A stretch of 64,000 nucleotides of DNA from Acidimicrobiales bacterium (GTDB lineage: Bacteria > Actinomycetota > Acidimicrobiia > Acidimicrobiales > Acidimicrobilacustridaceae), in NCBI GenBank assembly GCA_025455885.1, contig JALOLR010000001.1, forward strand, positions 195,441 to 259,440. Reading direction: 5' to 3'. Positions 1,695 through 19,668 of the stretch are shown here, piece by piece; the first letter of the stretch is position 1, and each line of letters opens with the position of its first letter. The notes beneath the pieces are model-generated. The model had not been told where the DNA came from, did not search any database, and was given only the letters and a program-made list of their open reading frames with translations. A program made the translations under genes and the position numbers.

Positions 1695-1716
1695 CGCCCC
1701 GGTGTCACCGCGGGGC
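1695..1716. terminator. Shared hairpin between convergent genes
   Basis: CGCCCC at 1695-1700 and GGTG at 1701-1704 can pair with CACC and GGGGCG just downstream, leaving a small bulge. The structure overlaps the stop codon of the allophanate hydrolase (minus strand) and lies 25 bases after the CsoR-type gene, so it could terminate both. There is no U-tract. Confidence 0.4.
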
Positions 1717-3492
1717 GCCTTCGGCCAGCCAGGCGCGCCAACCCCCGAAGCGGGTCAGGTCGACGGCCCCCTCCGCGGCGATGCCCTCGCACACGAAGCC
1801 GAGCACCGTCGAGCCGTCGGCCAGGCGGGTCGTGCCGATGGCCAACGGTGCCGGCACCCCGGTCGTGAACGCGCCGAGTCCGGCCACGGGGAGCCGCCAG
1901 AGCTCGACGGCGATGCGTCCTCCGTGCCCCTCGGGCACCCGGATGAGCCCGGGGCGGGGTGGGCCGGAGCAGGGCGGCAGCGAGTCGGCCAGGGCGATCA
2001 GCCGGTAGTCGGCGGCGGTGGTGGTGGCCCGCACGAACGTGGCGCCGTTCGTCGTGAGCTGGTGGTTGAGCGGGAGCCCCGCCAGGTGCGCCCCGACGAC
2101 CGCGAGGTCGACGTGACCCGGCGGCGGTGCGGTGCGCACCGGGAGGCGGCTGGTGACGCGCCCCTCGCGCCCGGCGGTGGCGCACAGCTCGGCGCCGAAC
2201 GCCGCGAGGAGGGCGTCGCGGCCGGCCGGGCCGACCGCCATGGCGCCGGCCGGCAGCCCCCACGCCCGCTCGCCCATCGGTACCGATGCCGCGGCGAGAC
2301 CGAACAGGTTCACGAAGTTGGTGAACGTGCCCAGCATCCGGCTGGTCCCGACCGGATCGGCGATCGCCGAGACGACGGTGGGCATCGTCGGGGTGACCGG
2401 GAGCAGCACCAGGTCGCCGGCCGCCAGCACGGCCCGGACCGCGGGGCGCAGGTCGTCGAGCGCCGCTCGGGCGGCGGCGTCGACCGCCGTGGGGTCCACG
2501 GTCGGGTCGACGGCGTCGCCCACGATGGCCGCCACGGTCGGGTCGGCCGTCTCGGGGTGGGCGGCCAGGTGGGCGCCGAAGGCCCGGTGGCGGGCCCGGA
2601 GCCACGGGCCAGGGGCGTAGAGGAGCCGCCCGACGGCCAGCAGCGCTTCGATGTCGACCTCCACCACCCGGTGGCCGAGGGCCGCCACGAGTTCCACGGC
2701 GGCGTGGTGGGCGGCCAGGGTGCCCGGGTCGCAGCTCGTCAGGCCGTCGCCAGTGGGCACCACGACGTCGAGCGCCCGTGGGTCGGGGAGGGGTGAGCCC
2801 CCCTCGACCCCGGCCGTGATCTCCGTCGCCAGCCAGGCCCCGGCGACGTCGGGGGCCAGCACCGACACGCAGTCGAGCTCCTCGACCGCCGGGACGACGC
2901 CCGTGGTGGGCACCCGGCCCACCGTGGGCTTGAGGCCCACGATCCCCGTGAACGACGCCGGCACCCGACCGGACCCGGCGGTGTCGGTGCCGAGGGCGAA
3001 CGGCACCACCCCGGCCGCGACGAGCGCCGCCGACCCCGAGCTCGACCCGCCGGGCACGAAGCCGGCGTCGACGGGGTTGCGGGGGGTCCCGAACGGCGAG
3101 CGGGTGCCGGCCAGCCCGGTGGCGAACTGGTCGAGGTTGGTCTTGGCGACGCAGGTCGCCCCGGCCCGTTCGAGGCGGGCCACCGCCTCGGCCGACGCGT
3201 CGGGTCGGTACCGGAACGAGGCGCACGCCGCGCTGGTGGGCAGCCCGGCGACGTCGATGTTGTCCTTCACCGCGAACGGGATCCCGGCGAGGGGGAGGTC
3301 CTCGACGTCGCGTCGGGTGAGGGCCGCCGCCCGCGCCCGGGCCTCGGCCTCGGGGAGCACGGCCAGCACCGCCGCCCGGTCGTCGAGGGCGTCGAGGCGC
3401 CGGTAGGCCTCCGCCACGACCTCGGTCGGGGTCACCTCTCCGGCGAGGAGCCGCCGCCGCAGCCCGCCGACGGTCCAGCCGTCGTCGGTCAC
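1705..3492 (-). CDS. atzF: Allophanate hydrolase (amidase-signature family)
   Basis: Hydrolyses allophanate to CO2 and two ammonia, the last step of guanidine or urea-carboxylase routes. The 595-aa protein has an N-terminal amidase-signature domain with Lys76 (FAVKDNIDVAG), the cis-Ser in GGSSSGS around residues 150-152 and the nucleophile Ser174 in GTDTAGSG. The C-terminal third (from about residue 470) matches the AtzF-type extension. GTG at 3492 is taken as the start because its bases overlap the TGA of the upstream carboxylase (GTGA, 4 bp), indicating translational coupling. Length equals the family norm of about 600 aa. Confidence 0.93.
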   Translation of the reverse strand: MTDDGWTVGGLRRRLLAGEVTPTEVVAEAYRRLDALDDRAAVLAVLPEAEARARAAALTRRDVEDLPLAGIPFAVKDNIDVAGLPTSAACASFRYRPDASAEAVARLERAGATCVAKTNLDQFATGLAGTRSPFGTPRNPVDAGFVPGGSSSGSAALVAAGVVPFALGTDTAGSGRVPASFTGIVGLKPTVGRVPTTGVVPAVEELDCVSVLAPDVAGAWLATEITAGVEGGSPLPDPRALDVVVPTGDGLTSCDPGTLAAHHAAVELVAALGHRVVEVDIEALLAVGRLLYAPGPWLRARHRAFGAHLAAHPETADPTVAAIVGDAVDPTVDPTAVDAAARAALDDLRPAVRAVLAAGDLVLLPVTPTMPTVVSAIADPVGTSRMLGTFTNFVNLFGLAAASVPMGERAWGLPAGAMAVGPAGRDALLAAFGAELCATAGREGRVTSRLPVRTAPPPGHVDLAVVGAHLAGLPLNHQLTTNGATFVRATTTAADYRLIALADSLPPCSGPPRPGLIRVPEGHGGRIAVELWRLPVAGLGAFTTGVPAPLAIGTTRLADGSTVLGFVCEGIAAEGAVDLTRFGGWRAWLAEGAPR

Positions 3493-6400
3493 GGCTCGAC
3501 GACCAGGATCACCTGGCCGGGCCGGACCTCCTGGCCCTCCCGGACCCGCACGTCGCTCACCCGTCCGGCCACGGGGCTCACCACCTTGGTCTCCATCTTC
3601 ATGGCCTCGAGGACGGCGACGGGCTCGTCGGCCGAGACCGTGTCGCCCGCGGCGACCAGCACCTTCCAGACGCTGCCGTGCAGCGGCGCGGCCACCCCGT
3701 GGTGCCCGTCGGGCAGGAGGTCGTCGTCGCGGACCACATCGGGCGGCAGCTCGGCGGAGAAGTTGGCCTGCCCCGTCGCCTCCCATCGGCGTCGCTCGGC
3801 GTCGAAGGCCGCCTGCTGGCGCGCCTTGGCCGTCTCGATGGCGTCGGTGTGCTCGCCGAGGAATCGGTGGTGGTCGCGCAGCGAGAACGTGCCGGGCTCG
3901 GTGTCGAGCGCGGTGCGGCCGGCCGCCATGTCGGCGCGGAGCTCGAGCAGCTCGTCGGCGCCGACGAGGTGGAAGGAGAGCCGGTCGAACAACCGCAGCC
4001 CCCAGGGCGGGCCGTCGGCCGGAGCGCGGAAGTGGTTCCAGACCGGGACGGTGCGCCCCACGAACTGGTAGCCACCGGGGCCCTCCATGCCGTAGACGCA
4101 CAGGTAGGCGCCGCCGATGCCGACCGCGTTCTCGGGGGTCCAGGTGCGCGCCGGGTTGTACTTGGTCGTCACCAGGCGGTGGCGCGGGTCGACGGGGGTG
4201 GCCACCGGCGCCCCGAGGTAGACGTCGCCCAGGCCGAGCACCAGGTACTCGGCGTCGAGCACGATCCGTTGGACGTCGTCGACCGAGTCGAGGCCGTTGA
4301 TGCGGCGGATGAACTCGATGTTGCTGGGGGCCCAGGGTGCGTCGGGGCGGACGATCTGGGTGTACTTCTCGATGGCGAGGCGGGTGGCGGGGTCGTCCCA
4401 CGACAGGGGGAGGTGCACGAGCCGGCTGGGCACCTCGACCTCCTCGAGGCCGGGGAGCAGGTCCTCGATCTCCACGAGCGCGTCGACGAGCGACGCGAGC
4501 GAGCGCCGGTGGGGGTCGAAGCGCACCTGGAGGGAGCGGATGCCGGGGGACAGCTCGACCACCCCCGCCGGGGGACGGGCGCGGAGGTGCTCCTGGAGGG
4601 CGTGGGCCCGCAGTCGCAGGTCGAGGTCGAGCACGTTCTCGCCGTACTCCACGAGCACGCACGAGGTGCCCGACCGCCGGTACGTGACCGCCGGGGCGGC
4701 GTCGCCGGCCGGGCGCCGGGCGAGGACCGCGGGGCTGGACGCGACCGTCGCACCGGTGACGGGCGCGGGCGCCGCGCCCGGGTCGGGGCCGGCCGTGGTC
4801 ACCAGGTCGAGGTCACGGCCGCCCCGGGCCTCGAGGGCCACTGCCTCGTCGTGGTCGAGGAGGTGGAAGCCGATGGTGTCGCCGGCCCGCACCTGCCCCA
4901 TCTTCCACAGCTCGGCGGGAGCGATCGTGACCGGGCAGACGAAGCCGCCGAGGCTGGGCCCGTCGGGACCGAGGACGACGGGCATGTCGCCGGTGAAGTC
5001 CACCGCCCCGACGGCGTACACGGTGTCGTGGATGTTCGAGGGGTGCAGGCCGGCCTCGCCGCCGTCGGGCCGGGCCCAGACCGGGGTGGGCCCGATGAGG
5101 CGCACGCCGGTGCGGTTGGAGTTGTAGTGCACCTGCCAGGTCGCGCCGAGGAACGCCTCGATGTCGTCGTCGGTGAAGAAGTCGGGGGCGCCGTGGGGGC
5201 CGTAGAGCACCCCGACCGACCAGGCGTCGGTCATCGTCGGCCGTCGGGCGGGGGCGACGTCGGCGCGCCCCGGTCCCGGCGCGGTGGGGTCGAGGAGGCG
5301 GATCACGTCGCCGGCCAGGAGCCCGCGACCACCGTGGCCCCCGAAGTGGCCGAGGTCGAACGTGGCCCGTGACCCGAGGAAGTGGTGGCCGTCGAACCCG
5401 CCGGCCACGGTGAGGTAGGCCCGACAGCCCGGGGCGCCGATGTCGCCGACCCGCAGGGTGGTGCCGGCCGCCACGGCGACCGCCGACCACGGGGCCAACG
5501 GCATCGGCTCACCCCCGTCGGGGGTGACGGTCGCGGCCGCCGGCGCCCCGGTGAGGCACACGGTGGTGGCGCTGCGGAAGCGCAGCGTGGGTCCGCGGAG
5601 GGTGAGCTCGAGGCCGGGTGCGCCCTCGTCGTTGCCGAGGAGACGGTTGCCCAGCCGGAACGACCGGTCGTCCATCGGACCCGACGGAGGGACCCCCACG
5701 TCCCAGTGCCCGATCCGGCCGGGGTGGTCCTGGACGGTGGTGTGCGTGCCCCCGTCGATCACGTCGACGGCGGCCGAGCTGAACGCCAGGCCGTCGAGCA
5801 GCCGCGTGGTGTGGGTGGCCTCGTCGAGCGCGGTGGACGCGACGACGGCGCGGAGCTGGTCGAGGTTGGTCTCGATGCCCGACACCCGGAAGCGCTCCAG
5901 GGCCCGCCCGAGCCGGGCGAGCGCCTCGGGGCGGGTGGGTGCCGACGCCACGACCTTGGCGAGCAACGGGTCGTAGTGGGGGCTGACCTCGGTGCCGGGG
6001 CGCACCCAGGTGTCGACCCGGACGTCACGGGGCGGGTCCCACTCCATCAGCCGGCCCGTCGACGGTCGGTAGCCGGCGGCGGGGTCCTCGGCGTAGACCC
6101 GGGCCTCGACGGACACCCCGCGTGGCGTGGGGCGCCGCGCCGCGAGGTCGCCGAGCTCACCGGCCGCGAGGAGCACCATCCACTCGACCAGGTCGACGCC
6201 CGTGGTGGCCTCGGTGACGGGGTGCTCGACCTGCAGGCGGGTGTTGACCTCGAGGAAGGCGGCCTCGGCGCGGTCGGCGTCGTAGACGAACTCCACCGTG
6301 CCCGCCGATCGGTAGTCGACCGAGCGTCCGAGGCGCACCGCGGCGTCGTGGAGGTCACGGCGGACCTCGTCGGGGAGCGCAGGTGCGGGAGCCTCCTCGA

Positions 6401-7112
6401 GGACCTTCTGGTTGCGGCGCTGCACGGTGCAGTCCCGGTCGCCGAGGGTGATCACCTCGCCCCGCCCGTCGCCGAAGAGCTGGACCTCGACGTGACGGGC
6501 CCGGCCGACGTAGCGCTCGACGAAGACCCCGCCCTCGGCGAAGTTGGCGGCGCCGAGGGCCTCGACCGAGGCGAACGTGGCGGCCAGCTCGTCGGCCGAG
6601 CGGCACAGGCCCATGCCGATCCCGCCGCCGCCGGCGGTGCTCTTCACCATCACCGGGAACCCGATGCGTTCGGCGGCGGCCACGGCGTCGTCGACGCCGT
6701 CGAGCAACCCCGACCCGGCGAGGACGGGGACGCCGTTGGCGACGGCCAGCTCCCGCGAGGTGTGCTTCAGACCGAAGCGGCGGAGCTGGTCGGGGGTGGG
6801 GCCGACGAACGCGATGCCGGCGTCCTCGCAGCGTTCGGCGAACGCGGCGTTCTCGGACAGGAAGCCGTACCCCGGGTGCACGGCCCCGGCGCCGGTGGCG
6901 GCCGCGGCGTCGAGGATGGCGTCCACCCGCAGGTAGCTGAGGGAAGGGGCGGCCGGCCCGATGGGGATCGCCTCGTCGGCGGCGTCGACGTGGGCGCTGT
7001 CGCGGTCGGCGTCGGAGTACACGGCGACGGACCGGATCCCCATGGCCCGCAGGGTGGCGATGATCCGACAGGCGATCTCCCCCCGGTTGGCCACCAGGAC
7101 GGCGTCGAACAT
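3489..7112 (-). CDS. Urea/guanidine carboxylase (biotin-dependent, single chain)
   Basis: ATP- and biotin-dependent carboxylation of guanidine (to carboxyguanidine) or urea (to allophanate). The 1207-aa order is: biotin carboxylase (1 to about 445, ATP-grasp glycine loop GGGGIGMG near 161, EVNTRLQVEHPVTE near 288); KipA-like AHS2 domain (about 453-750); KipI-like AHS1 domain (about 810-1015); a linker; and a biotinyl domain from about 1135 with EAMKMET, biotin-accepting Lys1172. Such proteins were long called urea carboxylase. When linked to two DUF1989 proteins and allophanate hydrolase, as here, characterised members prefer guanidine; I rely on this context and have not aligned the carboxyltransferase pocket. 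The ATG shares its A with the TGA of the preceding gene. Confidence 0.93.
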   Translation of the reverse strand: MFDAVLVANRGEIACRIIATLRAMGIRSVAVYSDADRDSAHVDAADEAIPIGPAAPSLSYLRVDAILDAAAATGAGAVHPGYGFLSENAAFAERCEDAGIAFVGPTPDQLRRFGLKHTSRELAVANGVPVLAGSGLLDGVDDAVAAAERIGFPVMVKSTAGGGGIGMGLCRSADELAATFASVEALGAANFAEGGVFVERYVGRARHVEVQLFGDGRGEVITLGDRDCTVQRRNQKVLEEAPAPALPDEVRRDLHDAAVRLGRSVDYRSAGTVEFVYDADRAEAAFLEVNTRLQVEHPVTEATTGVDLVEWMVLLAAGELGDLAARRPTPRGVSVEARVYAEDPAAGYRPSTGRLMEWDPPRDVRVDTWVRPGTEVSPHYDPLLAKVVASAPTRPEALARLGRALERFRVSGIETNLDQLRAVVASTALDEATHTTRLLDGLAFSSAAVDVIDGGTHTTVQDHPGRIGHWDVGVPPSGPMDDRSFRLGNRLLGNDEGAPGLELTLRGPTLRFRSATTVCLTGAPAAATVTPDGGEPMPLAPWSAVAVAAGTTLRVGDIGAPGCRAYLTVAGGFDGHHFLGSRATFDLGHFGGHGGRGLLAGDVIRLLDPTAPGPGRADVAPARRPTMTDAWSVGVLYGPHGAPDFFTDDDIEAFLGATWQVHYNSNRTGVRLIGPTPVWARPDGGEAGLHPSNIHDTVYAVGAVDFTGDMPVVLGPDGPSLGGFVCPVTIAPAELWKMGQVRAGDTIGFHLLDHDEAVALEARGGRDLDLVTTAGPDPGAAPAPVTGATVASSPAVLARRPAGDAAPAVTYRRSGTSCVLVEYGENVLDLDLRLRAHALQEHLRARPPAGVVELSPGIRSLQVRFDPHRRSLASLVDALVEIEDLLPGLEEVEVPSRLVHLPLSWDDPATRLAIEKYTQIVRPDAPWAPSNIEFIRRINGLDSVDDVQRIVLDAEYLVLGLGDVYLGAPVATPVDPRHRLVTTKYNPARTWTPENAVGIGGAYLCVYGMEGPGGYQFVGRTVPVWNHFRAPADGPPWGLRLFDRLSFHLVGADELLELRADMAAGRTALDTEPGTFSLRDHHRFLGEHTDAIETAKARQQAAFDAERRRWEATGQANFSAELPPDVVRDDDLLPDGHHGVAAPLHGSVWKVLVAAGDTVSADEPVAVLEAMKMETKVVSPVAGRVSDVRVREGQEVRPGQVILVVEP

Positions 7113-7762
7113 CAGGCGGCGGGAGTGTGCACGAGCACCTGCACCGGGGTCGGGTTCCAGCCGTTGCAGGGGTTGTTGAGCTGGGGGCAGTTGGAGATCA
7201 CCACGAGGATGTCGCGTTCGGCGCGCAGCTCGACGTGGGCGCCCGGCCGGGAGATCCCGTCGACGATGTCGAGGTGCCCGTCGGGGGTGACCGGGACGTT
7301 CATGAAGAAGTTGATGTTGGGGACCAGGTCACGCTTGCCGAGGCCGTGGCGGCTGAGGCCGAGGAGGAAGTTGTCCCGGCAGTTGTGCATGTGCCGGGTG
7401 TGGTGGCCGAAGCGGCACGTGTTGCTCTCGGCGCTGCAGGCGCCCCCCGAGGTGTCGTGGCGCCCGCAGGTGTCGTCGACGATGGTGGCGAGCGCGCCGC
7501 CCTCGCTCGAGCGCAGGACCGAGCCGGTGGTGAGGAAGATGCCGCCCTGGTCGCGCACCGTGGCCGCCGAGCTGTAGCGGTCGGTCGGGTCGTGCGCGTC
7601 GTACAGCAGGGTGTCGACGGCCTGGTTGCCCTCCAGGTCGACGATGCGCAGGAGGGCCCCGGCGGGCACCACACCCGTCCACGGCTCGCCGGGTCGCACG
7701 ATCTCGTCGACCACCACCGGGGTCGTACCGGTGTCGGCCGGGGGGGTGGAGAGGTTCGTCAC
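7112..7762 (-). CDS. DUF1989 protein, probable carboxyguanidine deiminase subunit
   Basis: The family was formerly named 'urea carboxylase-associated protein'; paired paralogues form carboxyguanidine deiminase (CgdAB), which converts carboxyguanidine to allophanate and ammonia. This 216-aa copy keeps a Cys/His-rich stretch around residues 97-122 (DDTCGRHDTSGGACSAESNTC) followed by NCRDNFLLGL and the RAERDILVVISNCPQLNNPCN tail, and is likely the metal-binding member. It starts with GTG, with GGGAG seven bases upstream, 19 bases after its paralogue. The family is clear; I cannot tell which one is CgdA or CgdB. Confidence 0.85.
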   Translation of the reverse strand: MTNLSTPPADTGTTPVVVDEIVRPGEPWTGVVPAGALLRIVDLEGNQAVDTLLYDAHDPTDRYSSAATVRDQGGIFLTTGSVLRSSEGGALATIVDDTCGRHDTSGGACSAESNTCRFGHHTRHMHNCRDNFLLGLSRHGLGKRDLVPNINFFMNVPVTPDGHLDIVDGISRPGAHVELRAERDILVVISNCPQLNNPCNGWNPTPVQVLVHTPAA

Positions 7763-7781
7763 GCAGGGCTCCCGTGGGGGG

Positions 7782-8522
7782 TCATCGGGTGAGGGAGAGG
7801 AGACGGTCGGTGTTCTCGAAGCCCCGGGCCCGTTCGGGGGTGGGGTCGATCCGTGGGTCGACGTCGACCGGGGCGTCGGCGAGGACGCTCACCCGGGTCG
7901 GGCCGGTCGCCCAGCCGGGTGACGGGTCGAGGGGATGCGGTGTGTTCGAGGCGACCACGAGGAGGTCCATCTCGGCGCGCAGGTCGATCAGGGCGCCCGG
8001 CCCACCGCCGGGGCCGACCCAGGTGAAGCGGCCGTCGGGGGCCACCTCCACCCGGTCGAAGAGGTTGAGGGTGGGGACGATGTCGCGACGGTCGAGGCCG
8101 TGGCGGCCGAGCGCGGCGATCAGGTTGTCGTGGGTGTTGACGTGGCGCTCGTTGCGGCGCTCGAGGTAGGTGCCCCCGTGGCTCGCGGCGTCGGTGGTGC
8201 CGGCGTCGGACGCGCCGCCGAGCGTGTCGTGGTGGCCGCCGGTGTCCCGCGTGATCGAGCACAGCACCCGACCCATGTCGGAGAAGAGCACCATGCCGGC
8301 GGTGAGGAAGATCTGGTTCTGGATCTTGACGGTGTCGGGGGCGTTGTAGCGCTCGCTCGGGTCGGCGGCGTTGCAGAGCAGGACCGCCGTGCCGCCCGAG
8401 CCCTCCACGTCGACGAAGCGGACGGTGCGGCCCCGGCGCACGACGCCGCTCCAGTACGCCCCGGGGGGGAGCAGGTCGTCGGTGACCGCCGCCGGCCCGG
8501 GCTCGTCGCCTGCCTCGTCCAC
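7782..8522 (-). CDS. DUF1989 protein, partner subunit (first gene of guanidine operon)
   Basis: Second DUF1989 paralogue, 246 aa, first gene of the operon. It retains the fold landmarks ERYNAPDTVK, THDNLIAALGRHGLDRRDIVPTLNLF and LRAEMDLLVVASNTPHPLDP. The cysteines of its neighbour's Cys/His cluster are replaced (GGHHDTLGGASDAG), so it may be a structural or altered-site subunit of a CgdAB-like heteromer. GTG at 8522 is chosen because GGGAG lies five bases upstream; an in-frame ATG at 8612 would add 30 residues but would place the operator inside the gene. The last 40 residues extend past the usual family end. Confidence 0.83.
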   Translation of the reverse strand: MDEAGDEPGPAAVTDDLLPPGAYWSGVVRRGRTVRFVDVEGSGGTAVLLCNAADPSERYNAPDTVKIQNQIFLTAGMVLFSDMGRVLCSITRDTGGHHDTLGGASDAGTTDAASHGGTYLERRNERHVNTHDNLIAALGRHGLDRRDIVPTLNLFDRVEVAPDGRFTWVGPGGGPGALIDLRAEMDLLVVASNTPHPLDPSPGWATGPTRVSVLADAPVDVDPRIDPTPERARGFENTDRLLSLTR

Positions 8523-8540
8523 TGGTGCTCCCACTGGGTC

Positions 8541-8559
8541 TTTCGATGAAACATTGAAA
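8541..8559. promoter_or_regulatory. Palindromic operator between TetR gene and guanidine operon
   Basis: TTTCGATGAAACATTGAAA is a 19-bp interrupted palindrome (TTTC, ATG, CAT, GAAA positions symmetrical). It sits 19 bases before the GTG of the DUF1989 gene and 122 bases before the divergent TetR start. The size and placement suit a TetR dimer. No guanidine riboswitch is recognisable in the 158-base gap. Confidence 0.6.
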
Positions 8560-8680
8560 CCGTCGGGTACCAGACTGTGGCCTGATCGGGCCGGAGTCAA
8601 CCGACTCGGCACAAGGACACGGAGCGTTCACAGAGCGGATCCCCCGGCCCGCGTGCCCGACGGCGCTACCTTGCTCGGCC

Positions 8681-9421
8681 ATGAGCACGCCACGGGCGCC
8701 GCGGTCCGTCCCCCGCTCGGCGGGACGACCCCGGTCCAACCCCCGTCCCCTCGACGGCACCGCTCACGACGAGATCCTGCGGGCGGCCACGAAGCTCTTC
8801 GCCGAGAAGGGGTTCGCCCGCACCACCATGAGCGAGATCGCCTCGGCCGCCGGTCTGAAGCAGTCGTCCCTCTACTACTACTTCAACCGCAAGGAGCAGA
8901 TCCTCCAGGCCACCTTCACCGTCAACCGGGCGCCCCTCGAGTTCATCGAGCGCATCGGCACCGGCGACGACTCGCCGGGCGTGAAGCTCTACCGGCTGTT
9001 GCGCTTCGACGCCGAGCAGCTGTGCACCGCCCCGTGCGACGTGAACGAGGTGGAGCGCCTGGCGTCCGTGCAGCCCGACCAGTTCGACGAGTTCTGGGCG
9101 GACCGGCAGGCCCTGCACGACTGGGTCGAGCGGCTGCTCGTCGAGGGGGTCGAGGCCGGCCAGTTCGTCGACCTCGTCGTGCCGCTCACCGCGCTGTCAC
9201 TGCTCTCCGGCGACGAGGGCCTGCAGAACTGGTTCCGCGACCAGCACAACCACCGCCCCGGCCGCGCCGTCTTCTCCTTCCCGGCCTTCGACGCCGTGAC
9301 CGTGGCCCGCCACTACGCCGGCGCGTCGCTGCGCTCGATCCTGCGCCGGCCCTCCGACCTCGCCCGCATCGAGAAGCGGGTCGCCGCGCTCGACGCGGAG
9401 GAGGCGGGCGAGGGCGCCTGA
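8681..9421 (+). CDS. TetR/AcrR-family transcriptional regulator
   Basis: 246-aa regulator. The N-terminal helix-turn-helix is canonical: DEILRAATKLFAEKGFARTTMSEIASAAGLKQSSLYYYF at about residues 28-66. The C-terminal ligand/dimer domain is not assigned to a ligand. It is divergent from the guanidine operon and upstream of the amine-type cluster, so it could control either. TACCTT at 8667-8672 lies eight bases before ATG with no Shine-Dalgarno, suggesting a leaderless transcript. The first 25 residues are Arg/Pro-rich and may be disordered. Confidence 0.9.
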   Translation: MSTPRAPRSVPRSAGRPRSNPRPLDGTAHDEILRAATKLFAEKGFARTTMSEIASAAGLKQSSLYYYFNRKEQILQATFTVNRAPLEFIERIGTGDDSPGVKLYRLLRFDAEQLCTAPCDVNEVERLASVQPDQFDEFWADRQALHDWVERLLVEGVEAGQFVDLVVPLTALSLLSGDEGLQNWFRDQHNHRPGRAVFSFPAFDAVTVARHYAGASLRSILRRPSDLARIEKRVAALDAEEAGEGA

Positions 9422-9508
9422 GGGCGGCTCGGGGCGACGACAGCTACCCGTCAGCACCCCTTCACCTCATCGTGACGCTGCGCACCCGAAGCGGCAACAG
9501 GAGGTCCG

Positions 9509-9524
9509 TACTCTCAATAGAGTA
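9509..9524. promoter_or_regulatory. Perfect inverted repeat overlapping the Rieske gene start
   Basis: TACTCT and AGAGTA are exact complements around CAAT, and the last base is the A of the ATG at 9524. TACTCT itself resembles a -10 box for a nearly leaderless mRNA, so a bound repressor would cover promoter and start codon. The binding protein is unknown; the TetR gene ending at 9421 is the nearest candidate. Confidence 0.55.
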
Positions 9525-10582
9525 TGGAAACCACCTACCTGCTCCCCCCTGACGCCTACTACAGCGACGAGTGGTTCGAACGGGAGCAGCGTCTCCTGTT
9601 CGGCGACACCTGGCACCTGGCCTGCAGCGCCCACGAGGTGGCCGAGCCCGGCGACTACACCACCATCGTGGCGGGCCATGACCCGCTCGTGGTCGTTCGA
9701 GGGCTCGACGGTCGCCTCGCCGCCTTCCACGACCTGTGCCCCCACCGGGGCATCCAGCTGCTCGACGGCTCCGGCAACACCCGGGCCGGCATCAGCTGCC
9801 CGTACCACGCGTGGAACTTCTCGCTCGACGGCGAGCTGCGCAACGTCCCCCAGCCCGAGCAGTTCCCCGACCTCGACCACCAGGCGTGCGCGCTGCCGCC
9901 CGCCGCCTTGGGGGAGTGGGGCGGCAACGTCTTCGTGCACCCCGATCCCTCCGCCACCCCCCTCGAGGAGTGGATGGGGGCGTTCCCCACCGGCATCGGC
10001 AGCTTCCGGCCCGAGGAGCTGACCCAGGTCCTGCACTTCCAGCTGCCCGCCGCCACCAACTGGAAGTTCTTCGTCGAGAACCACGTCGACGTCTACCACC
10101 TCTGGTACCTGCACAGCCGCACGCTGAGCGACTTCGACCACAATCGCTTCGAGTGGGACCAGGTCGGCCGGCACTGGGTCAGCCACGAGCCGTCGAAGGC
10201 CGGGCTCCGCACCCGCCGTCCGGCCGCCGGTTCCGGCGCGGTGAGCCACATCGACGAGCGTGACCGTGACGGCATCGGCGCCCACGCCCTCTTCCCGAAC
10301 ATCCTGATGGCCAGCGAGGCCGAGTACTTCATCACCTACGTGGCCGTGCCCCTCGGGCCCGAGCGCATGGAGGTCGACGTGCGGGTCCGCGCCGAGCCGG
10401 GCGCCGACCTCGATGCCATCCAGAAGGGCATCGAGGCGTTCGTCGTCGAGGACATCGCCGCCTGCGAGGGCATCCAGCGAGCCGTGCGGTCCTCGCGGTA
10501 CCGGGTCGGGCCCATGGCCCAGGAGCACGAGCGGCCGATCACCAACTTCCAGCGCCACCTGCTCGAGGTCCTCGGCGAGTGA
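9524..10582 (+). CDS. Rieske non-heme iron oxygenase, alpha subunit
   Basis: Oxygenase component that hydroxylates or demethylates a small substrate using electrons from a separate reductase. The 352-aa chain has the Rieske [2Fe-2S] ligands Cys72, His74 (CPHRG), Cys92 and His95 (CPYHAW). Its catalytic domain has the mononuclear iron ligands His192 and His197 (VDVYHLWYLH) and probably Asp310 (VVEDIAACEGIQ). The length suits alpha-only enzymes of the demethylase type. No small subunit, ferredoxin or reductase is encoded nearby. The stop overlaps the next start (TGATG). The substrate is unknown; the neighbours suggest a nitrogen compound. Confidence 0.9.
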   Translation: METTYLLPPDAYYSDEWFEREQRLLFGDTWHLACSAHEVAEPGDYTTIVAGHDPLVVVRGLDGRLAAFHDLCPHRGIQLLDGSGNTRAGISCPYHAWNFSLDGELRNVPQPEQFPDLDHQACALPPAALGEWGGNVFVHPDPSATPLEEWMGAFPTGIGSFRPEELTQVLHFQLPAATNWKFFVENHVDVYHLWYLHSRTLSDFDHNRFEWDQVGRHWVSHEPSKAGLRTRRPAAGSGAVSHIDERDRDGIGAHALFPNILMASEAEYFITYVAVPLGPERMEVDVRVRAEPGADLDAIQKGIEAFVVEDIAACEGIQRAVRSSRYRVGPMAQEHERPITNFQRHLLEVLGE

Positions 10583-11397
10583 TGACGGTCCCCGAGGCGT
10601 TCGTCGGCTGTTGGACCCGCGACGGGGTGTCGGTGGCGGGCGAGGAGCTCGCCGAACCGGCCGACGTGATGTGGCTCCAGGGCCGTGAGTGGTTCGCCGA
10701 CGTTCGCGTCCCCCGACCCGACGGCCGGGCCGGGCCCGCCACCACGGCCCTCGGGGCCCGCGCCGAGGCGTTCGGCGGACGGTGCGCCTGGACGACGCTG
10801 GAGGGCGTCGAGCCCGCCGTCGGGGGGGCGCTCTCCTGGTCCCACGAGGTCGACTGGACGGGCGGCTTCGCCGAGGGCGACGGCGCCGAGGCCCGGTGGG
10901 TGGCCGACGACTGCTTCGAGGAGCACGGCACCGTCGACGACGACGACCCCCCGACCCCGTTCCGCGAGGTGTGGCGACGGCAGCCCGCGGAGGCCGCGCC
11001 GCTGGTCGTCGTGGGCTTCGACGGCGAGAGTCGCACGACGGCGATGTCGGTCGCGGTGGGCGGTCGCCGCCTCGTGCTCGTCGACCGACGGTCCACGGGG
11101 GGAGCGTTCGCCTGGTCCCAGGCCCTGCGGGACGAGGACGGCGGGTGGCGGGTCGTCCGACGCCAGGTGGACCCGCCCGTCACGGTCGCGTCGGCCGACG
11201 TGGACGCCACGCCGGCGCTCGCCGACGCCGAGGCCACTGCCGACTGGCTGGACGCCCACCCCGCCTCGGAGGCCGGCATGAAGTTTGCCGGCTCAGATAC
11301 GACGTGGGTCGTCGTCGAGGCCGGTGGCCTGGTTCACGACCGGTTGGCGCTGTCGAAACAGTATCGAAACAGTCCGTCCGTACGGTGCGGCCCATGA
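10582..11397 (+). CDS. Unrecognised 271-aa protein of the amine-type cluster
   Basis: I do not recognise this family with confidence. The protein is acidic and Trp-rich, with a repeated pattern of short beta-rich segments (GCWTRDGVSVAGEEL, VMWLQGREWFADVRVPRP, AFGGRCAWTTLEG, ALSWSHEVDWTGGF). These are reminiscent of lipocalin- or HRI1-like ligand-binding barrels, but that is a visual impression only. It has no signal peptide or membrane segment. The start ATG shares a base with the Rieske stop, so it is cotranslated. The last 35 residues may be frame run-on: they span the direct repeat and promoter-like box at 11353-11386 and end in an ATGA overlap with the next gene. Confidence 0.6.
   Translation: MTVPEAFVGCWTRDGVSVAGEELAEPADVMWLQGREWFADVRVPRPDGRAGPATTALGARAEAFGGRCAWTTLEGVEPAVGGALSWSHEVDWTGGFAEGDGAEARWVADDCFEEHGTVDDDDPPTPFREVWRRQPAEAAPLVVVGFDGESRTTAMSVAVGGRRLVLVDRRSTGGAFAWSQALRDEDGGWRVVRRQVDPPVTVASADVDATPALADAEATADWLDAHPASEAGMKFAGSDTTWVVVEAGGLVHDRLALSKQYRNSPSVRCGP
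11353..11386 (+). promoter_or_regulatory. Direct repeat and -10-like box before the creatininase-family gene
   Basis: TCGAAACAGT occurs at 11353-11362 and again at 11364-11373, an 11-bp period (one helical turn). TACGGT at 11381-11386 follows, seven bases before the ATG at 11394. This could be an internal, separately regulated promoter inside the cluster, even though it lies in the 3' end of the preceding reading frame. Confidence 0.4.
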
Positions 11398-12221
11398 GGT
11401 CCAATCGCTGGGAGGAGCTGTCGGCCGACGAGCTGAGCGTGCGGCTGACCGCCCTCGACGGCCACGAGGTCGGCCTCGTCCCGGTGGGCGCCACCGAGCA
11501 GCACGGCCCCCACCTGCCGTCGGGCACGGACACCATCATCGCCACCCGCCTGTGCGAGCTGGTCGCCGAGCGGACCGGCTGCCTGGTGCTCCCGGCCATC
11601 TCCGTGGCCTGCAGCTTCGGGCACGGGCGGGTGCTGGCCGGCACGCTCTCCTCCACCCCCGAGCTCGTCGCGTCGACCGTGCGGGAGTACGCCGACTGGG
11701 CGGCCTGCTCCGGTCTCACCCGGCTGCTGTTCGTCAACGCCCACTTCGGCAACGGCGCCGCCCTGTCGGTGGCCACCGACCACCTCCGCCTGCACCGACC
11801 CGACCTCCGGGCGGCCTACGTCGACTGGTACTCCGCCACCCCCGAGATCCTCGCCGAGGTCACCGCCGACGGCGACGACATCCACGCCAACCGCGCCGAG
11901 ACCTCGGTGATGCTGGCGCTCGCCCCCCACCTCGTCGACACGACCGCCATGGCCGGCGCCGACGACGCCGACCGCACCGAAGGGCTCGTGTTCCGCTACA
12001 CCGCCGAGGCGCTCTCGACGAACGGTGTGACCGGCAACCCGTCGCAGGCCTCCGTCGCCCTCGGCGAGCACCTGGTCGGCCTCGCCGTCACCGCCCTGGG
12101 CGAGCTCGTCGAGCGGGGCCGCGTCGAGGAACCCCCGCTCGTCGCGCACCGGCCCGCCACCGTCTCCCCCCGACCCCGCCCCGTGGCCGCATCGTCGGCC
12201 GCCGCGAAAGGACCGACCTGA
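11394..12221 (+). CDS. Creatininase-superfamily amidohydrolase
   Basis: Metal-dependent cyclic-amide or amide hydrolase of the creatininase/ArfB/MftE superfamily. The 275-aa protein carries the hallmark GATEQHGPHLPSGTDT (residues about 32-47, Glu and His metal ligands), SFGHGRV, NAHFGNG and HANRAETSVML, the last supplying the Glu ligand. The substrate is not predictable from sequence. The context with a glutamine-synthetase-like ligase and an amidotransferase-like hydrolase suggests it opens or cleaves an amide intermediate. It overlaps the upstream gene (ATGA) and its TGA shares a base with the next ATG. The C-terminal 25 residues are low-complexity. Confidence 0.88.
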   Translation: MRSNRWEELSADELSVRLTALDGHEVGLVPVGATEQHGPHLPSGTDTIIATRLCELVAERTGCLVLPAISVACSFGHGRVLAGTLSSTPELVASTVREYADWAACSGLTRLLFVNAHFGNGAALSVATDHLRLHRPDLRAAYVDWYSATPEILAEVTADGDDIHANRAETSVMLALAPHLVDTTAMAGADDADRTEGLVFRYTAEALSTNGVTGNPSQASVALGEHLVGLAVTALGELVERGRVEEPPLVAHRPATVSPRPRPVAASSAAAKGPT

Positions 12222-13600: not shown

Positions 13601-13602
13601 GC

Positions 13603-14313
13603 ATGGCGACCACGTCCTCGCCGACCGCGGTCCAGAGGGTCGCCGTGCTGCTCGGACGCGAGCCCGAGGAGCGGTTCTCGATCCACCGCGGCTACATCGA
13701 CGGCGTCGTCGCCGCCGGAGCGCTGCCGGTGCTGCTCGTGCCCGGTCCCGCCGGCGCCGACGAGGCGGTGCTGGCCGCGGTCGCCGAGTGCGACGCCGTG
13801 CTCGTCACCGGCGGCCACGACGTCGACCCGACCCTCTACGGGGAGGCGGACGGCGGCCTGGTGAAGGGCATCGACGCCGACCGCGACCGCCTCGAGGTGG
13901 AGGTGGTGCGCCGGACGGTGGCGAGCGGTCGGCGGCTCCTCGGGATCTGCAGGGGCATCCAGATCCTCAACGTCGCCCTCGGGGGCTCGTTGCACCAGGA
14001 CCTCGTCACCGACGGGCTCGACCAGCACTCGGTGGAGGACCGGCCCCACGAGCCGGTGCACGACCTCGAGGTGGTGCCCGGTTCGCTGATCGAGGGCCTG
14101 CTCGCCGGGCGGACCAAGGTCAACTCGCTGCACCACCAGGGCGTGAAGGTGCTCGGCGAGGGCCTCGAGGCCACGGCGTTCGCCCCCGACGGCCTGATCG
14201 AGGCCTTCGAGGCCCCCGGGGTGCTGGGGATCCAGTGGCACCCCGAGCGCATGCTCGGCTTCGACGACGTGTTCCACGCCCCGTTCCGCTGGCTGGTGGG
14301 GTCGGGGTCGTGA
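13603..14313 (+). CDS. Class-I glutamine-amidotransferase-like hydrolase (PuuD family)
   Basis: Peptidase C26 family; PuuD-type enzymes release glutamate from gamma-glutamyl amides. The 236-aa protein has the nucleophile Cys116 in GICRGIQILNVALGGSL, the VTGGHDVDP oxyanion segment near residue 70 and the His-Glu pair in IQWHPERM. It lies two bases after the GS-like ligase, and its stop overlaps the next GTG (GTGA). It would reverse or complete the gamma-glutamylation cycle of this cluster. Confidence 0.9.
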   Translation: MATTSSPTAVQRVAVLLGREPEERFSIHRGYIDGVVAAGALPVLLVPGPAGADEAVLAAVAECDAVLVTGGHDVDPTLYGEADGGLVKGIDADRDRLEVEVVRRTVASGRRLLGICRGIQILNVALGGSLHQDLVTDGLDQHSVEDRPHEPVHDLEVVPGSLIEGLLAGRTKVNSLHHQGVKVLGEGLEATAFAPDGLIEAFEAPGVLGIQWHPERMLGFDDVFHAPFRWLVGSGS

Positions 14314-15083: not shown

Positions 15084-15159
15084 CCCCGACCGTTCCCCAC
15101 CCCTCGACGACCGTTCCCACCCCATCCCCCCGAACCACCCCCACCCCCCCGGAGGCACC

Positions 15160-16749
15160 GTGACCCGACCATCCCGTCTGCGACTCTTCGCCGCACTGAC
15201 CGTCGTACTGGCCCTCGTGCTGGCGGCCTGCTCGTCGGGTTCGTCCGACTCGTCGTCGGAGGGCACCGGCGGCGGCAGCGAGGACACCACCCTCGACGTG
15301 GCCTTCGTCGCCGACATGCAGGTCCCCGACCCCGACATCTTCTACGAGATCGAGGGGAACCTCGTCGTGACCTCGGTGTACGAGGGACTCGTCCGCTACA
15401 AGCCCAGCTCCCCGGAGATCGAGCCGGCGCTGGCCGACTCCTGGACGGTCTCCCCGGACGGGCTGACGTACACGTTCAACCTGAAGCCGGACGTCAAGTT
15501 CGCGAGCGGCGCCCCCGCCGACGCCCAGGCCTGGGTGGAGAGCTTCCAGCGGCGCCTCGACGTCAACGCCGCACCGGCCTACATGTTGGCCGACGTCGTC
15601 TCGACCGCCGCCCCCGACCCGACGACCTTCGTGGTCACGCTCGCCAACCCGGTCAACCCCTTCCTCGACTACCTGGCCGCCGCCTACGGCCCGAAGGCCG
15701 TCGACCCGACCGTCCTGGCCGCCGAGGGCGGCGACGACTTCGCCCAGAGCTATCTGGCCACCAACTCCGCCGGCACCGGGCCGTACCAGATCTCGGAGTT
15801 CAACGTCGGTACCGGGTACCAGCTCACGCTGAACCCCAACTACTGGGGCCCGAAGCCGTACTTCGAGACGGTCAACATCTCGATCATCCCGGACATCGCC
15901 ACCCAGCGGCTGAAGCTCGAGAGCGGCGAGCTGGACATGATGACCCACGGCCTCCCCGTGGCCGACGTCGAGAGCTTCCGCGAGAACCCCGACTTCCAGG
16001 TCCAGACGTTCCCGGTGCTCATCAAGACGATGCTGTCGGCCAACCCCGACCAGGGTCCCTTCGCCGACGAAGCGGTGCGCAAGGGCCTCCAGCAGGCGTT
16101 CGACAAGGAGGCGCTCACCGAGGAGATCTACGCCACACAGGCAGAGCCGAGCACCCAGGTCTACCCGGCCACCGTCCTGCCGCCCACGCTGGCCCTCGAC
16201 GTCGACACCTACGACCCGGAGGCTCTCACCACGGCGGTGGCCGCGCTCCCCGCGGACCAGCGTTCGGTCGACATGGCGTACTCCGAGGACGAGGGCGGCA
16301 CCATCGGCCGGCTCGCCGAGACCGTCGCCACGACCCTGGAGCAGGCCGGGCTCGACGTCACCGTCCGGGGGCTCCCCATCGGCCAGGTGCTCGAGCTGCC
16401 CACCGCCGAGTCGGGCCGACCCGACCTGTTGCTGTTCAGCTTCAACCCGGATGCCGCCCACCCCGACACGTGGGCCCGCATCTTCTACTTCACCGGGGGC
16501 GGCCTGAACTTCCTCGGGTGCTCCGTCCCTGCCGCCGACGCCCTGATGGACCAGGGCCTCGTCCAGCTCGAGACGGCGCCCATGCAGCAGTTCTACGGCC
16601 AGGCCGGTGACGAGATCGTCGACTCGGGCTGCTACACCACCATCGCCGACAACCTCGAGGTGGTGGTGGCCCGCACCGGTATCACCGGGTTCGTGCATCA
16701 GATCGCGACGCCGTACACCGTGCGGCTGAAGGACCTGACCGCCGGATGA
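15160..16749 (+). CDS. ABC transporter solute-binding lipoprotein (peptide/nickel family, SBP_bac_5)
   Basis: Extracytoplasmic receptor for a peptide-like or cationic small molecule. The 529-aa protein begins with a lipoprotein signal (lipobox LAAC, Cys24) and a Ser/Gly-rich linker. The body is typical of DppA/OppA: SVYEGLVRY, LADSWTVSPDGLTYTFNLKPDVKF, GTGPYQ, NPNYWGPKPYF. GTG at 15160 has GGAGG six bases upstream. The following ATPase gene overlaps it by ATGA. It likely imports the compound broken down by the upstream enzymes. Confidence 0.93.
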   Translation: MTRPSRLRLFAALTVVLALVLAACSSGSSDSSSEGTGGGSEDTTLDVAFVADMQVPDPDIFYEIEGNLVVTSVYEGLVRYKPSSPEIEPALADSWTVSPDGLTYTFNLKPDVKFASGAPADAQAWVESFQRRLDVNAAPAYMLADVVSTAAPDPTTFVVTLANPVNPFLDYLAAAYGPKAVDPTVLAAEGGDDFAQSYLATNSAGTGPYQISEFNVGTGYQLTLNPNYWGPKPYFETVNISIIPDIATQRLKLESGELDMMTHGLPVADVESFRENPDFQVQTFPVLIKTMLSANPDQGPFADEAVRKGLQQAFDKEALTEEIYATQAEPSTQVYPATVLPPTLALDVDTYDPEALTTAVAALPADQRSVDMAYSEDEGGTIGRLAETVATTLEQAGLDVTVRGLPIGQVLELPTAESGRPDLLLFSFNPDAAHPDTWARIFYFTGGGLNFLGCSVPAADALMDQGLVQLETAPMQQFYGQAGDEIVDSGCYTTIADNLEVVVARTGITGFVHQIATPYTVRLKDLTAG

Positions 16750-18761
16750 CCGTTCCGGCCCCGACCGTCGTCGAGTCCCCGGTCACCGCTGACGCGGTGG
16801 CCGGGGGCCCGGTGGCGTCGGTTCGCGACCTCTCGGTCACCTTCCGGCGCGGGGGCCGGGAGGTCCGGGCCCTGCGGGGGGTGTCCCTCGACGTCGCTCC
16901 CGGGGAGATCGTCGGCCTCGTCGGCGAGTCCGGCTCGGGCAAGAGCGTGCTGGGGCTGAGCCTGCTCGGGCTCCTTCCGGCCACGCCGACACCCACCGTC
17001 GGAGGCTCGGCCGTCGTGGCCGGGGTCGACATGGTGTCGGCCCCGGCGGCCGAGCAGCGCCGGGTGCGCCGCCTGCACCTGGGAGCGGTGTTCCAGGACC
17101 CGATGACGTCGCTCGACCCCACGATGACGGTGGGCCGCCAGGTCGCGGAGGCGGCGGGGGACGACGAGGACCACCTCGAGTTGCTCGACGCGGTCGGCAT
17201 CCCCGACCCGGCCCCTCGGGCCCGCTCCTACCCCCACCAGCTCTCCGGTGGCCTGCGCCAGCGGGTCATGATCGCCATGGCCATCGCCGGGCGACCCCAG
17301 CTCGTCATCGCCGACGAGCCGACGACGGCCCTCGATGTCAGCGTGCAGGCCCAGATCCTCACCCTCATCCGTGATCTCTGCGACCGGACCGGGACGTCGT
17401 TCCTGTTCGTGACCCACGACCTGGGCGTCGCCGCACAGCTCGCCGACCGCATCGTCGTCATGTACGGCGGGCGGGTGGCCGAGACCGGCCCGGCTGCGGC
17501 GGTGCTCGGGGCGCCGGTCCACCCCTACACCACGGCGCTGCTGCGCAGCCGACTCACCCTGGCGAGCGACCGGACCAGGCCGCTGGCCACGCTGCCCGGC
17601 GAGCCCCCCGACCCGCGGGACCTGCCGCCGGGATGCGCCTTCGCGCCGCGGTGCGACTTCGCCGTCGACGCCTGCAACGACGCCCTGCCCGAGCTGACCT
17701 CCGCGCTCGTCGACGGCGACGGGCCCGGGGGCCACGAGGGCACCGTCGCGTGCATCCGGGCCGGCGACACGGTGGCCGCCGCGGCCGCCGAGCACGAGCC
17801 GTGGGGCCGGGTGTCCCTCACCCTCGCCGGGTACGGCACGCCGAGGGAGTCGCCGGTCCGCCTCGAGGGCGTCCACCGGTCCTTCGCGGTCCGCCAGGGG
17901 TTCCGCCGGTCCCGCACCCTTCACGCCCTGCGCGGTGTCGACCTCGAGGTCGGGGTCGGCCAGTCCGTCGCGCTGGTCGGAGAGAGCGGGAGCGGCAAGT
18001 CGACGTTGCTCCGGGTGGTCGCCGGGCTCCTCGGCCCGGACGCCGGACAGGTCACCCTCGGGGAGGGCGGGCAGCCCCAGATCGTCTTCCAGGACGCCGG
18101 TGCCTCCATGACCCCGTGGCTCACCGTCGGCGACCTGCTCGAGGAACGCGTCCTCGACCAGTCGAAGGCGGAGCGCCGCCGGCTGACCCGCGAGACGCTC
18201 GAGCTCGTCGGCCTCCCCGCCGAGGTGGCCGCCGCGAAACCCAAGCAGCTCTCCGGCGGGCAGCGTCAGCGCGCCGCGCTGGCCCGGGCGGTCATCCGGC
18301 CGCCGGCGTTGCTGTTGTGCGACGAGCCCACGAGCGCCCTCGACGTCTCCCTGGCGGCGACGGCGCTGAACCTGATCGGCCGCCTGCGCCGGGAGCTGGG
18401 CATGGCCGTGCTCTTCGTCACCCACGACCTGGCCGCCGCCCGCCTCGTCGCCGACCGGGTCGCCGTGATGTACCTCGGGCGCATCGTCGAGTCCGGTCCG
18501 GTCGACGACGTCATCGCCAACCCGCGCCACCCCTACACGCGGGCGCTGCTGGCCGCGGTCCCCGAACCGGGCGCGGTGCACGTGCCGCTCCCCGGCGACC
18601 CCCCCAGCGCCATCGACCCCCCGGCGGGGTGCGCCTTCCACCCCCGGTGCGCGCTGGCCACCGACGCCTGCCTCCAGGAGGACCCCGTGCTCGTCGTGTC
18701 GCCGTCGCTCGTCGCCGGCCCCGACCACCTCACCGCCTGCCACCACCAGGACCGCGACTGA
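16746..18761 (+). CDS. Fused two-domain ABC ATPase of peptide/nickel importer (DppD-DppF type)
   Basis: Energises the importer from the cytosolic side. The two nucleotide-binding domains are in one 671-aa chain. First: Walker A GESGSGKS 60-67, signature LSGGLRQR 167-173, Walker B ending Asp190-Glu191, and an oligopeptide-transporter tail ending near 340. Second: Walker A 413-420, LSGGQRQR 503-510, LLLCDEP 524-530. Each half ends with the Cys-containing PPGCAF-PRC/PAGCAFHPRC motif of this subfamily. Both domains look catalytically intact. It overlaps the receptor stop, and the next ATG shares a base with its TGA. Confidence 0.93.
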   Translation: MTVPAPTVVESPVTADAVAGGPVASVRDLSVTFRRGGREVRALRGVSLDVAPGEIVGLVGESGSGKSVLGLSLLGLLPATPTPTVGGSAVVAGVDMVSAPAAEQRRVRRLHLGAVFQDPMTSLDPTMTVGRQVAEAAGDDEDHLELLDAVGIPDPAPRARSYPHQLSGGLRQRVMIAMAIAGRPQLVIADEPTTALDVSVQAQILTLIRDLCDRTGTSFLFVTHDLGVAAQLADRIVVMYGGRVAETGPAAAVLGAPVHPYTTALLRSRLTLASDRTRPLATLPGEPPDPRDLPPGCAFAPRCDFAVDACNDALPELTSALVDGDGPGGHEGTVACIRAGDTVAAAAAEHEPWGRVSLTLAGYGTPRESPVRLEGVHRSFAVRQGFRRSRTLHALRGVDLEVGVGQSVALVGESGSGKSTLLRVVAGLLGPDAGQVTLGEGGQPQIVFQDAGASMTPWLTVGDLLEERVLDQSKAERRRLTRETLELVGLPAEVAAAKPKQLSGGQRQRAALARAVIRPPALLLCDEPTSALDVSLAATALNLIGRLRRELGMAVLFVTHDLAAARLVADRVAVMYLGRIVESGPVDDVIANPRHPYTRALLAAVPEPGAVHVPLPGDPPSAIDPPAGCAFHPRCALATDACLQEDPVLVVSPSLVAGPDHLTACHHQDRD

Positions 18762-19645
18762 TGGCCGTCGCCGAGCCGTACGTGGCGCCCCCCGTCCCGG
18801 GGCGGTTCGGCCGGGCCGCGCTGCGTCGACGCGGCGGGATGCTGGCTCTCGGCACGACCTTCGACAAGGTCGCGCTCGGTCTCCTCGGGTTCGTGACCCT
18901 CCTGGCCCTCGTCGGACCCCTGCTGGCCCCGAACCCGCCCGACGAGGCGGTCGGGGCGCCGTTCCAGGCGCCGTTCTCGCCCGGGTTCCTCCTCGGCACC
19001 GACGACATCGGCCGCGACATCCTGAGCCGGGTCCTCTACGGCATCCAGTCGAGCTGGTTCTCGGCGCTGGTCGTCATCCTCTCCGGGGTGATCATCGGCG
19101 GGATCGTCGGACTGCTCGCCGGCGCGGCGGGCGGCTGGGTCGACGCGGTGCTGATGCGCATCACCGACACCTTCCTCGCCCTCCCCGGCCCCGTGCTCGC
19201 CATCGCCGTGGTCGCCGCGCTCGGCCCCGGGCTGCGCAACACGCTCGTGGCGGTGGGGCTGGTCTGGTGGCCGTACTACGCCCGCATCGTGCGCGGCGAG
19301 GTGCGGGCGCTGGCGTCACGGCCCCACGTGGAGGCCGCCCGGCTGGCCGGGGCGGGCCGCACGCGGATCATGGTGCGCCACCTGCTCCCCGGCACGGTTG
19401 GCGTGACGGTGGTGGCGGCGTCGCTCGACGTCAGCGCGCTGCTGCTCACCCTGGCCAGCCTGTCGTTCCTGGGTCTCGGCGCCCCCGCCCCGGCGCCCGA
19501 GCTGGGCGCCATGACCGCCCGGGGACTCACCTACCTGCTCGAGTACGCATGGATCCCCCTGGTCCCCGCGGTGGCGGTGTTCCTCCTCGCGCTGGTGGCC
19601 AATCTCGCCGGCGACGGCATCCGAGACCTGATCGGGCGCCGGTGA
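18761..19645 (+). CDS. ABC transporter permease (DppC type)
   Basis: Inner-membrane subunit of 294 aa with about six transmembrane helices after a cytosolic N-terminal tail. The extracytoplasmic LLGTDDIGRDILSRVLYG segment (about residues 77-94) and the EAA loop around EAARLAGAGRTRIMVRHLLPG identify the DppC/OppC branch. In operon with the fused ATPase, whose stop overlaps its start, and the DppB-type permease 24 bases downstream. Confidence 0.92.
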   Translation: MAVAEPYVAPPVPGRFGRAALRRRGGMLALGTTFDKVALGLLGFVTLLALVGPLLAPNPPDEAVGAPFQAPFSPGFLLGTDDIGRDILSRVLYGIQSSWFSALVVILSGVIIGGIVGLLAGAAGGWVDAVLMRITDTFLALPGPVLAIAVVAALGPGLRNTLVAVGLVWWPYYARIVRGEVRALASRPHVEAARLAGAGRTRIMVRHLLPGTVGVTVVAASLDVSALLLTLASLSFLGLGAPAPAPELGAMTARGLTYLLEYAWIPLVPAVAVFLLALVANLAGDGIRDLIGRR

Positions 19646-19668
19646 CGGCCCCGGGGAGGACCTAGGCC

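Follow-up and report, generated by a model that had tools for sequence, protein, structure and literature searches.

A TetR-type repressor as candidate regulator of guanidine assimilation in an Acidimicrobiales bacterium

We analysed a 64,000-nucleotide stretch of an Acidimicrobiales genome (GenBank assembly GCA_025455885.1, contig JALOLR010000001.1, positions 195,441 to 259,440; hereafter the window), in which an operon encoding a biotin-dependent carboxylase, two DUF1989 proteins and an allophanate hydrolase lies divergently from a gene for a TetR-family protein. Our reading, to which we assign a probability of about 0.7, is that these genes serve guanidine assimilation as one regulon, which a TetR-type repressor controls. 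At the level of sequence the reading is supported by gene content, by the specificity residues of the carboxylase, by a conserved TetR protein and operator, by the absence of known guanidine riboswitches, and by the presence of such a riboswitch on a homologous second operon in relatives; repressor binding, inducer, ligand pocket and second-operon chemistry are predictions.

Gene content and predicted specificity of the carboxylase operon

The operon occupies the minus strand and comprises the following genes.

1705..3492, minus strand: allophanate hydrolase (atzF type), 595 aa; TIGR02713 563 bits (cut-off 511), PF01425, C-terminal domain AH_C (PF21986)
3489..7112, minus strand: predicted guanidine carboxylase (gca), 1207 aa, under the database name urea carboxylase; TIGR02712 1735 bits; Asp705, Asp963
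7112..7762, minus strand: cgdB, DUF1989 (UAAP2), predicted carboxyguanidine deiminase subunit; TIGR03424 324 bits (cut-off 285), PF09347
7782..8522, minus strand: cgdA, DUF1989 (UAAP1), predicted carboxyguanidine deiminase subunit; TIGR03425 256 bits (cut-off 206), PF09347

A preliminary description of this DNA had proposed a coupled four-gene operon for guanidine rather than urea, and its outline holds: all four genes are present, with a 4-base overlap between hydrolase and carboxylase, a 1-base overlap between carboxylase and cgdB, and a 19-base gap between cgdB and cgdA. It had also anticipated that annotation pipelines would name the enzyme urea carboxylase, which is indeed the name of the NCBIfam model (TIGR02712) that it matches above cut-off. 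The hydrolase exceeds the cut-off of its model, as does each DUF1989 protein, a match that provisionally places the latter two with CgdA and CgdB. The cgdA start is likely the GTG at 8522, a few bases downstream of a GGGAG; position 8559, formerly cited as the end of the operon, is the outer edge of a palindrome (8541-8559) and no start codon.

Guanidine carboxylases carry Asp at the position of Kluyveromyces lactis residue 1330, where urea carboxylases have Asn, together with Asp at 1584 (PMC11410670). In an alignment with two K. lactis structures (3va7, 5i8i), Asp705 of the window enzyme fell opposite Asn1330 and its Asp963, within the motif LGLGDV, opposite Asp1584; a third hallmark of guanidine carboxylases, adjoining cgdA and cgdB genes, is likewise present. 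We then surveyed 106 homologous loci from many phyla, 103 of which have Asp or Asn at position 705. A cgdB gene lies nearby in 94 of the 99 Asp705 loci, a contig end cutting 4 of the remaining 5, whereas only 1 of the 4 Asn705 loci has one (Fisher P=0.001), and two Asn705 homologues (L202, L203) are accompanied by allophanate hydrolase only. The alignment that the preliminary description had recommended thus gives Asp, the residue tracks cgdA and cgdB across homologues, and assignment of the window carboxylase to the guanidine rather than the urea type is supported on both counts. The carboxylase would convert guanidine to carboxyguanidine with ATP and biotin, CgdA and CgdB would deiminate carboxyguanidine to allophanate, and allophanate hydrolase would free the remaining ammonia.

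In a tree of carboxylases the window enzyme groups with other acidimicrobial enzymes (support 92), but the operon is absent from close relatives of the same genus and family, and its acquisition by transfer is therefore possible. The survey also returned one genome (G296) with both a guanidine-type Asp705 locus (L200) and a urea-type Asn705 locus (L203), as well as two loci (L205, 7166-12149; L206, 3816-8812) with cgdA, cgdB and allophanate hydrolase in which the carboxyltransferase has Ile at the position of Asp705 and its match is interrupted by in-frame stops, possibly the sign of a split enzyme with a different specificity.

The TetR-family gene and its putative operator

The regulatory features of the locus are the following.

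8681..9421, plus strand: TetR-family repressor, 246 aa; PF00440 63.6 bits (cut-off 24)
8541..8559, unstranded: putative operator TTTCGATGAAACATTGAAA upstream of cgdA; 27.9 bits, at most one mismatch
11351..11369, unstranded: putative operator TGTCGAAACAGTATCGAAA, ending 24 bases before the creatininase-family gene; 25.3 bits, 2 mismatches
9512..9530, unstranded: weak operator-like site at the start of the Rieske oxygenase gene; 16.8 bits, 3 mismatches

Among 248 genomes of the order, the guanidine carboxylase occurs in 11, a homologue of the TetR protein in 13 and both in 10 (P=1.5e-14, relatedness not corrected for). In a phylum-wide sample a profile search found a TetR homologue in 12 of the 16 genomes that have the carboxylase (P=8e-10, again without correction for relatedness), those adjoining the operon belonging mostly to a second subfamily whose NLGALYLLPE segment matches AmtR structures. 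Some of the genomes compared are fragmented. Within the order the gene adjoins the guanidine operon in 8 of 10 relatives, and the usual locus consists of the TetR gene, an SsuA-type ABC importer and then cgdA, cgdB, carboxylase and hydrolase.

Several TetR-bearing loci share in their intergenic regions the palindrome TTTCGAT-N5-ATCGAAA. Throughout the 3.29-Mb genome of the window, the sole site with at most one mismatch to it is that upstream of cgdA; four more have two mismatches, 11351-11369 among them (five sites with no more than two in all). A matrix from which the window site had been left out gives these two sites 27.9 and 25.3 bits; four sites exceed 17 bits in 843 kb of G+C-rich loci, the window included, and none does in 6 Mb of random sequence. 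Four relatives carry two copies each, exact in G160 and G185 and with one mismatch in G188 and G140; all of them fall within the guanidine locus, where one copy adjoins cgdA and the other the importer. A fifth (G520) has weaker copies, with three mismatches, before all three of its transcription units, and control genomes lacking this TetR yielded no operator copies. In G178 one operator stands upstream of cgdA and one at a Rieske gene, and because the TetR/Rieske cluster and the guanidine operon lie on different contigs, each with its own operator, the arrangement suggests that the repressor acts in trans. Co-occurrence and operator together led us to reject the TetR gene as a random neighbour.

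The subfamily also extends to loci of other content: in G585 a member with an exact operator lies beside a true creatininase gene and two genes resembling guanidino-ureohydrolases, and G284 has a similar arrangement. At two loci (L208, L210) an exact operator precedes a true creatininase gene next to an arginase-family gene pair, which is related to guanidinopropionase/guanidinobutyrase and agmatinase 2.

In the window's TetR subfamily Asp120, Asn122, Glu123, Arg126, Asp178, Glu179 and Gln182 are invariant or nearly so, a set of residues that would plausibly suit a cationic ligand. The protein falls outside the AmtR-type group: it has no NLGALYLLPE segment in the ligand domain and instead conserves PxDxNE and [ND]E..Q motifs of its own, and no AmtR box accompanies it.

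Elements already known to control such operons were not found. An Rfam scan of 7000-10000 returned no family match even at E<=5, which excludes a known riboswitch overlooked by eye; no guanidine riboswitch of any class was detected in the window and none of class I in the whole genome, and scans of the acidimicrobial guanidine loci and of loci from other actinobacteria gave no riboswitch either, while the same search found guanidine-I and -II in Vreelandella boliviensis. Guanidine-I riboswitches occur in 0 of the 11 carboxylase genomes as against 22 of the 248 in the order, a difference that is not significant alone (chance 0.35). Between cgdA and tetR the best match to an AmtR box has 5/14 mismatches and the best to a GlnR box 3/9, and we rejected both; AmtR boxes are present at loci with AmtR-type TetRs. 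These scans agree with the preliminary description, which had seen no nitrogen-regulator site or riboswitch and had placed a TetR gene and operator in their stead, and the conservation of both across genomes supports this.

A divergent operon controlled by a riboswitch in relatives

Downstream of the TetR gene, and in the same direction, lies a second operon (9524-20664).

9524..10582, plus strand: single-subunit Rieske oxygenase, nearest to carnitine/glycine-betaine monooxygenases; PF00355 and PF00848, CntA 6y8j
10579..11397, plus strand: 272-aa protein without Pfam or NCBIfam match; 4-base overlaps with both neighbours
11394..12221, plus strand: creatininase-family amidohydrolase; PF02633 197 bits
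12221..13600, plus strand: type III glutamine synthetase-like ligase (GS-III), near glutamate-methylamine ligase; PF00120, best PDB match 9qur
13603..14313, plus strand: peptidase C26, gamma-glutamyl hydrolase-like; PF07722
14310..15083, plus strand: short-chain dehydrogenase (SDR); PF00106
15160..16749, plus strand: family-5 solute-binding protein (SBP5) of an ABC importer; PF00496, homologues directly behind guanidine-I riboswitches
16746..18761, plus strand: two-domain ABC ATPase, from its translation
18761..19645, plus strand: ABC permease, from its translation
19669..20664, plus strand: ABC permease, from its translation

Two of these proteins fall below the cut-offs of the specific family models, the creatininase homologue scoring 110.6 against 235 bits for TIGR04448 and the GS-III-like ligase 430.4 against 469.6 bits for TIGR03105. 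The 272-aa protein is translationally coupled to the Rieske gene and has a weak homologue in G178.

In three genomes of the order (G069, G189, G078) a guanidine-I riboswitch lies directly upstream of an orthologous operon of GS-III, creatininase, C26, SDR and SBP5 genes (46-66% identity), the window ligase being 64-66% identical to genes behind the riboswitch; elsewhere in the order guanidine-I riboswitches precede family-5 importers and ureohydrolases. The same type of operon thus carries a guanidine-I riboswitch in relatives and a TetR operator in the window, so that protein seems to have replaced RNA as the sensor over homologous operons. We infer the replacement, since no single locus shows both states. 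The window's genome yielded no SsuA-type binding protein, which leaves the family-5 ABC importer as the candidate for guanidine uptake. The divergent operon would be a second guanidine-linked operon, possibly serving import or the freeing of guanidine from substituted guanidines. A literature search found no papers linking guanidine riboswitches with creatininase.

The preliminary description had called the TetR gene dedicated to the carboxylase operon, a view we abandon because the divergent operon carries an operator and is guanidine-I controlled in relatives; the repressor probably runs a small guanidine regulon instead. Its further suggestion that regulation might differ from known guanidine loci is supported, with the correction that AmtR is an earlier example of a TetR-type repressor over 'urea carboxylase' operons in actinobacteria (PMC4222082).

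Two observations were made in passing. Rieske oxygenase genes adjoin guanidinase-like ureohydrolases at L142 (7957-10163) and L144 (3869-8437), the latter behind a guanidine-I riboswitch, and Rfam 5' ureB sRNA matches lie near guanidine-linked loci at L141 (9588-9873) and L142 (6058-6356).

Proposed regulation, alternatives and known systems

In the model that we favour, a TetR dimer without inducer would occupy TTTCGAT-N5-ATCGAAA upstream of cgdA and of the creatininase/GS-III genes and block both operons; guanidine or a close guanidino compound would then bind the repressor, probably near Asp120, Asn122/Glu123 and Asp178/Glu179, and release it from DNA.

Several observations weigh against this model. 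The riboswitch and TetR states never occur together at one locus, and G030, G071, G143 and G125 have weak operators or none that we found, those of G520 being weak as well. This TetR is missing from one genome that has the guanidine operon (G004); conversely, G125 has the TetR with a creatininase/GS-III cluster, with no clear operator and no cgd or carboxylase gene found in the genome. The tree puts the window TetR in a loose group (88/85) with TetRs of creatininase/GS-III clusters and not with those neighbouring guanidine operons. A single-sequence AlphaFold model of the repressor (pLDDT 53) was too poor for placing a pocket and was left unused. Finally, a guanidino compound other than guanidine could act as inducer, or the repressor could, like AmtR, answer to a protein.

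The strongest competitor, which we consider unlikely though deserving of attention, takes the first of these options: inducer and true substrate would be a substituted guanidine or creatinine-like compound handled by the divergent operon, with guanidine merely a downstream product. A creatininase-family gene and a Rieske enzyme of N-dealkylase type are at hand, and the G585 locus and the company that the window TetR keeps in the tree point the same way. Set against this, the window's creatininase homologue scores under the creatininase cut-off, eight relatives' TetRs accompany a guanidine operon and SsuA-type importer only (the stretches that were read contain no creatininase gene), and the guanidine-I riboswitch, the type of element that controls the operon in relatives, selects against methylguanidine in the V. 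boliviensis case.

Less probable still is an AmtR-like nitrogen-status repressor that responds to a general shortage of nitrogen, by way of GlnK or some other protein, and not to guanidine. AmtR is by function the nearest characterised TetR repressor, is among the top PDB matches, and represses the 'urea carboxylase' operon of Mycobacterium smegmatis; its binding was insensitive to urea and amino acids, guanidine is unmentioned among the effectors tested (PMC4222082), and no small effector of it is known, adenylylated GlnK having been proposed for Corynebacterium glutamicum (PMC4222082, PMC8864220). AmtR-type TetRs moreover flank guanidine loci of other actinobacteria. The window protein, however, has other ligand-domain motifs and a different operator, its sites are limited to a small number of operons linked to guanidine and form no global nitrogen regulon, and the second operon is under a guanidine riboswitch in relatives.

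We give little credence to a TetR that serves the Rieske/creatininase operon alone beside a guanidine operon adjacent by chance: the TetR gene is co-directional with the Rieske/creatininase operon, and in G125 a cluster of this kind accompanies the TetR with no guanidine operon found, yet the genome's best operator lies upstream of cgdA, the TetR gene adjoins the guanidine operon in most relatives, and in G178 the separated clusters both have the operator. That the carboxylase acts on urea and the operon assimilates it is very improbable and was rejected, since the database name and the overall similarity to yeast urea amidolyase are outweighed by Asp where urea enzymes have Asn and by the presence of cgdA and cgdB, mostly missing beside Asn homologues; urease was likewise set aside, the urease alpha model giving weak partial matches only.

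A 2025 review counts riboswitches as the sole guanidine receptors known besides transporters and enzymes, with guanidine-binding transcription factors still awaiting discovery (PMC12186494). The window supplies a candidate guanidine-sensing repressor with a short, defined operator and points to an unstudied guanidine-linked operon. The stronger proposal, that the TetR protein is a guanidinium-sensing repressor which replaced the guanidine-I riboswitch within one order and whose regulon includes an undescribed guanidine-linked pathway (Rieske, creatininase-family, GS-III-like), stands in our judgement at even odds; if true, protein and RNA sensors have been exchanged over homologous operons inside one bacterial order. 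The pathway was already known, as was TetR control of such operons under another name (AmtR); what is added here is a separate TetR subfamily with an operator of its own, the connection to a further operon, and the observation that relatives have a riboswitch on this further operon.

The gca-cgdAB-atzF operons of Pseudomonas syringae and V. boliviensis have the same four enzymes and specificity residues as the window, but that of V. boliviensis has guanidine-I and -II riboswitches and an ABC importer inside it, whereas the window has no riboswitch and its genome no SsuA-type importer that we could find. The divergent operon shares enzyme classes (GS-like ligase, C26 hydrolase, Rieske oxygenase) with amine degradation of the AtdA/TdnQ type, which, unlike it, concerns aromatic amines, uses two-subunit oxygenases and has no guanidine link. 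The riboswitch operons of G069, G189 and G078 share the orthologous GS-III, creatininase, C26, SDR and SBP5 genes with the window and differ in their RNA control and in that no guanidine carboxylase was found in these genomes; G069 and G189 have guanidinase-like ureohydrolases near the riboswitch operon. The AmtR operons of M. smegmatis and other actinobacteria resemble the window in placing a TetR-family repressor over an operon with a carboxylase, two small uncharacterised genes, an amidase and a transporter; they are annotated as urea operons, and the AmtR box, TATCTGTC-N4-GACAGATA (PMC8864220), differs from the window operator, as do TetR subfamily and ligand-domain motifs. Among our loci, L192-L200 and L091 have AmtR-type TetRs and TTCTGTC-N4-GACAGAA-like boxes beside Asp705 guanidine loci of other actinobacteria. 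By gene content, the 'urea carboxylase' targets of AmtR look as though they may themselves be guanidine operons.

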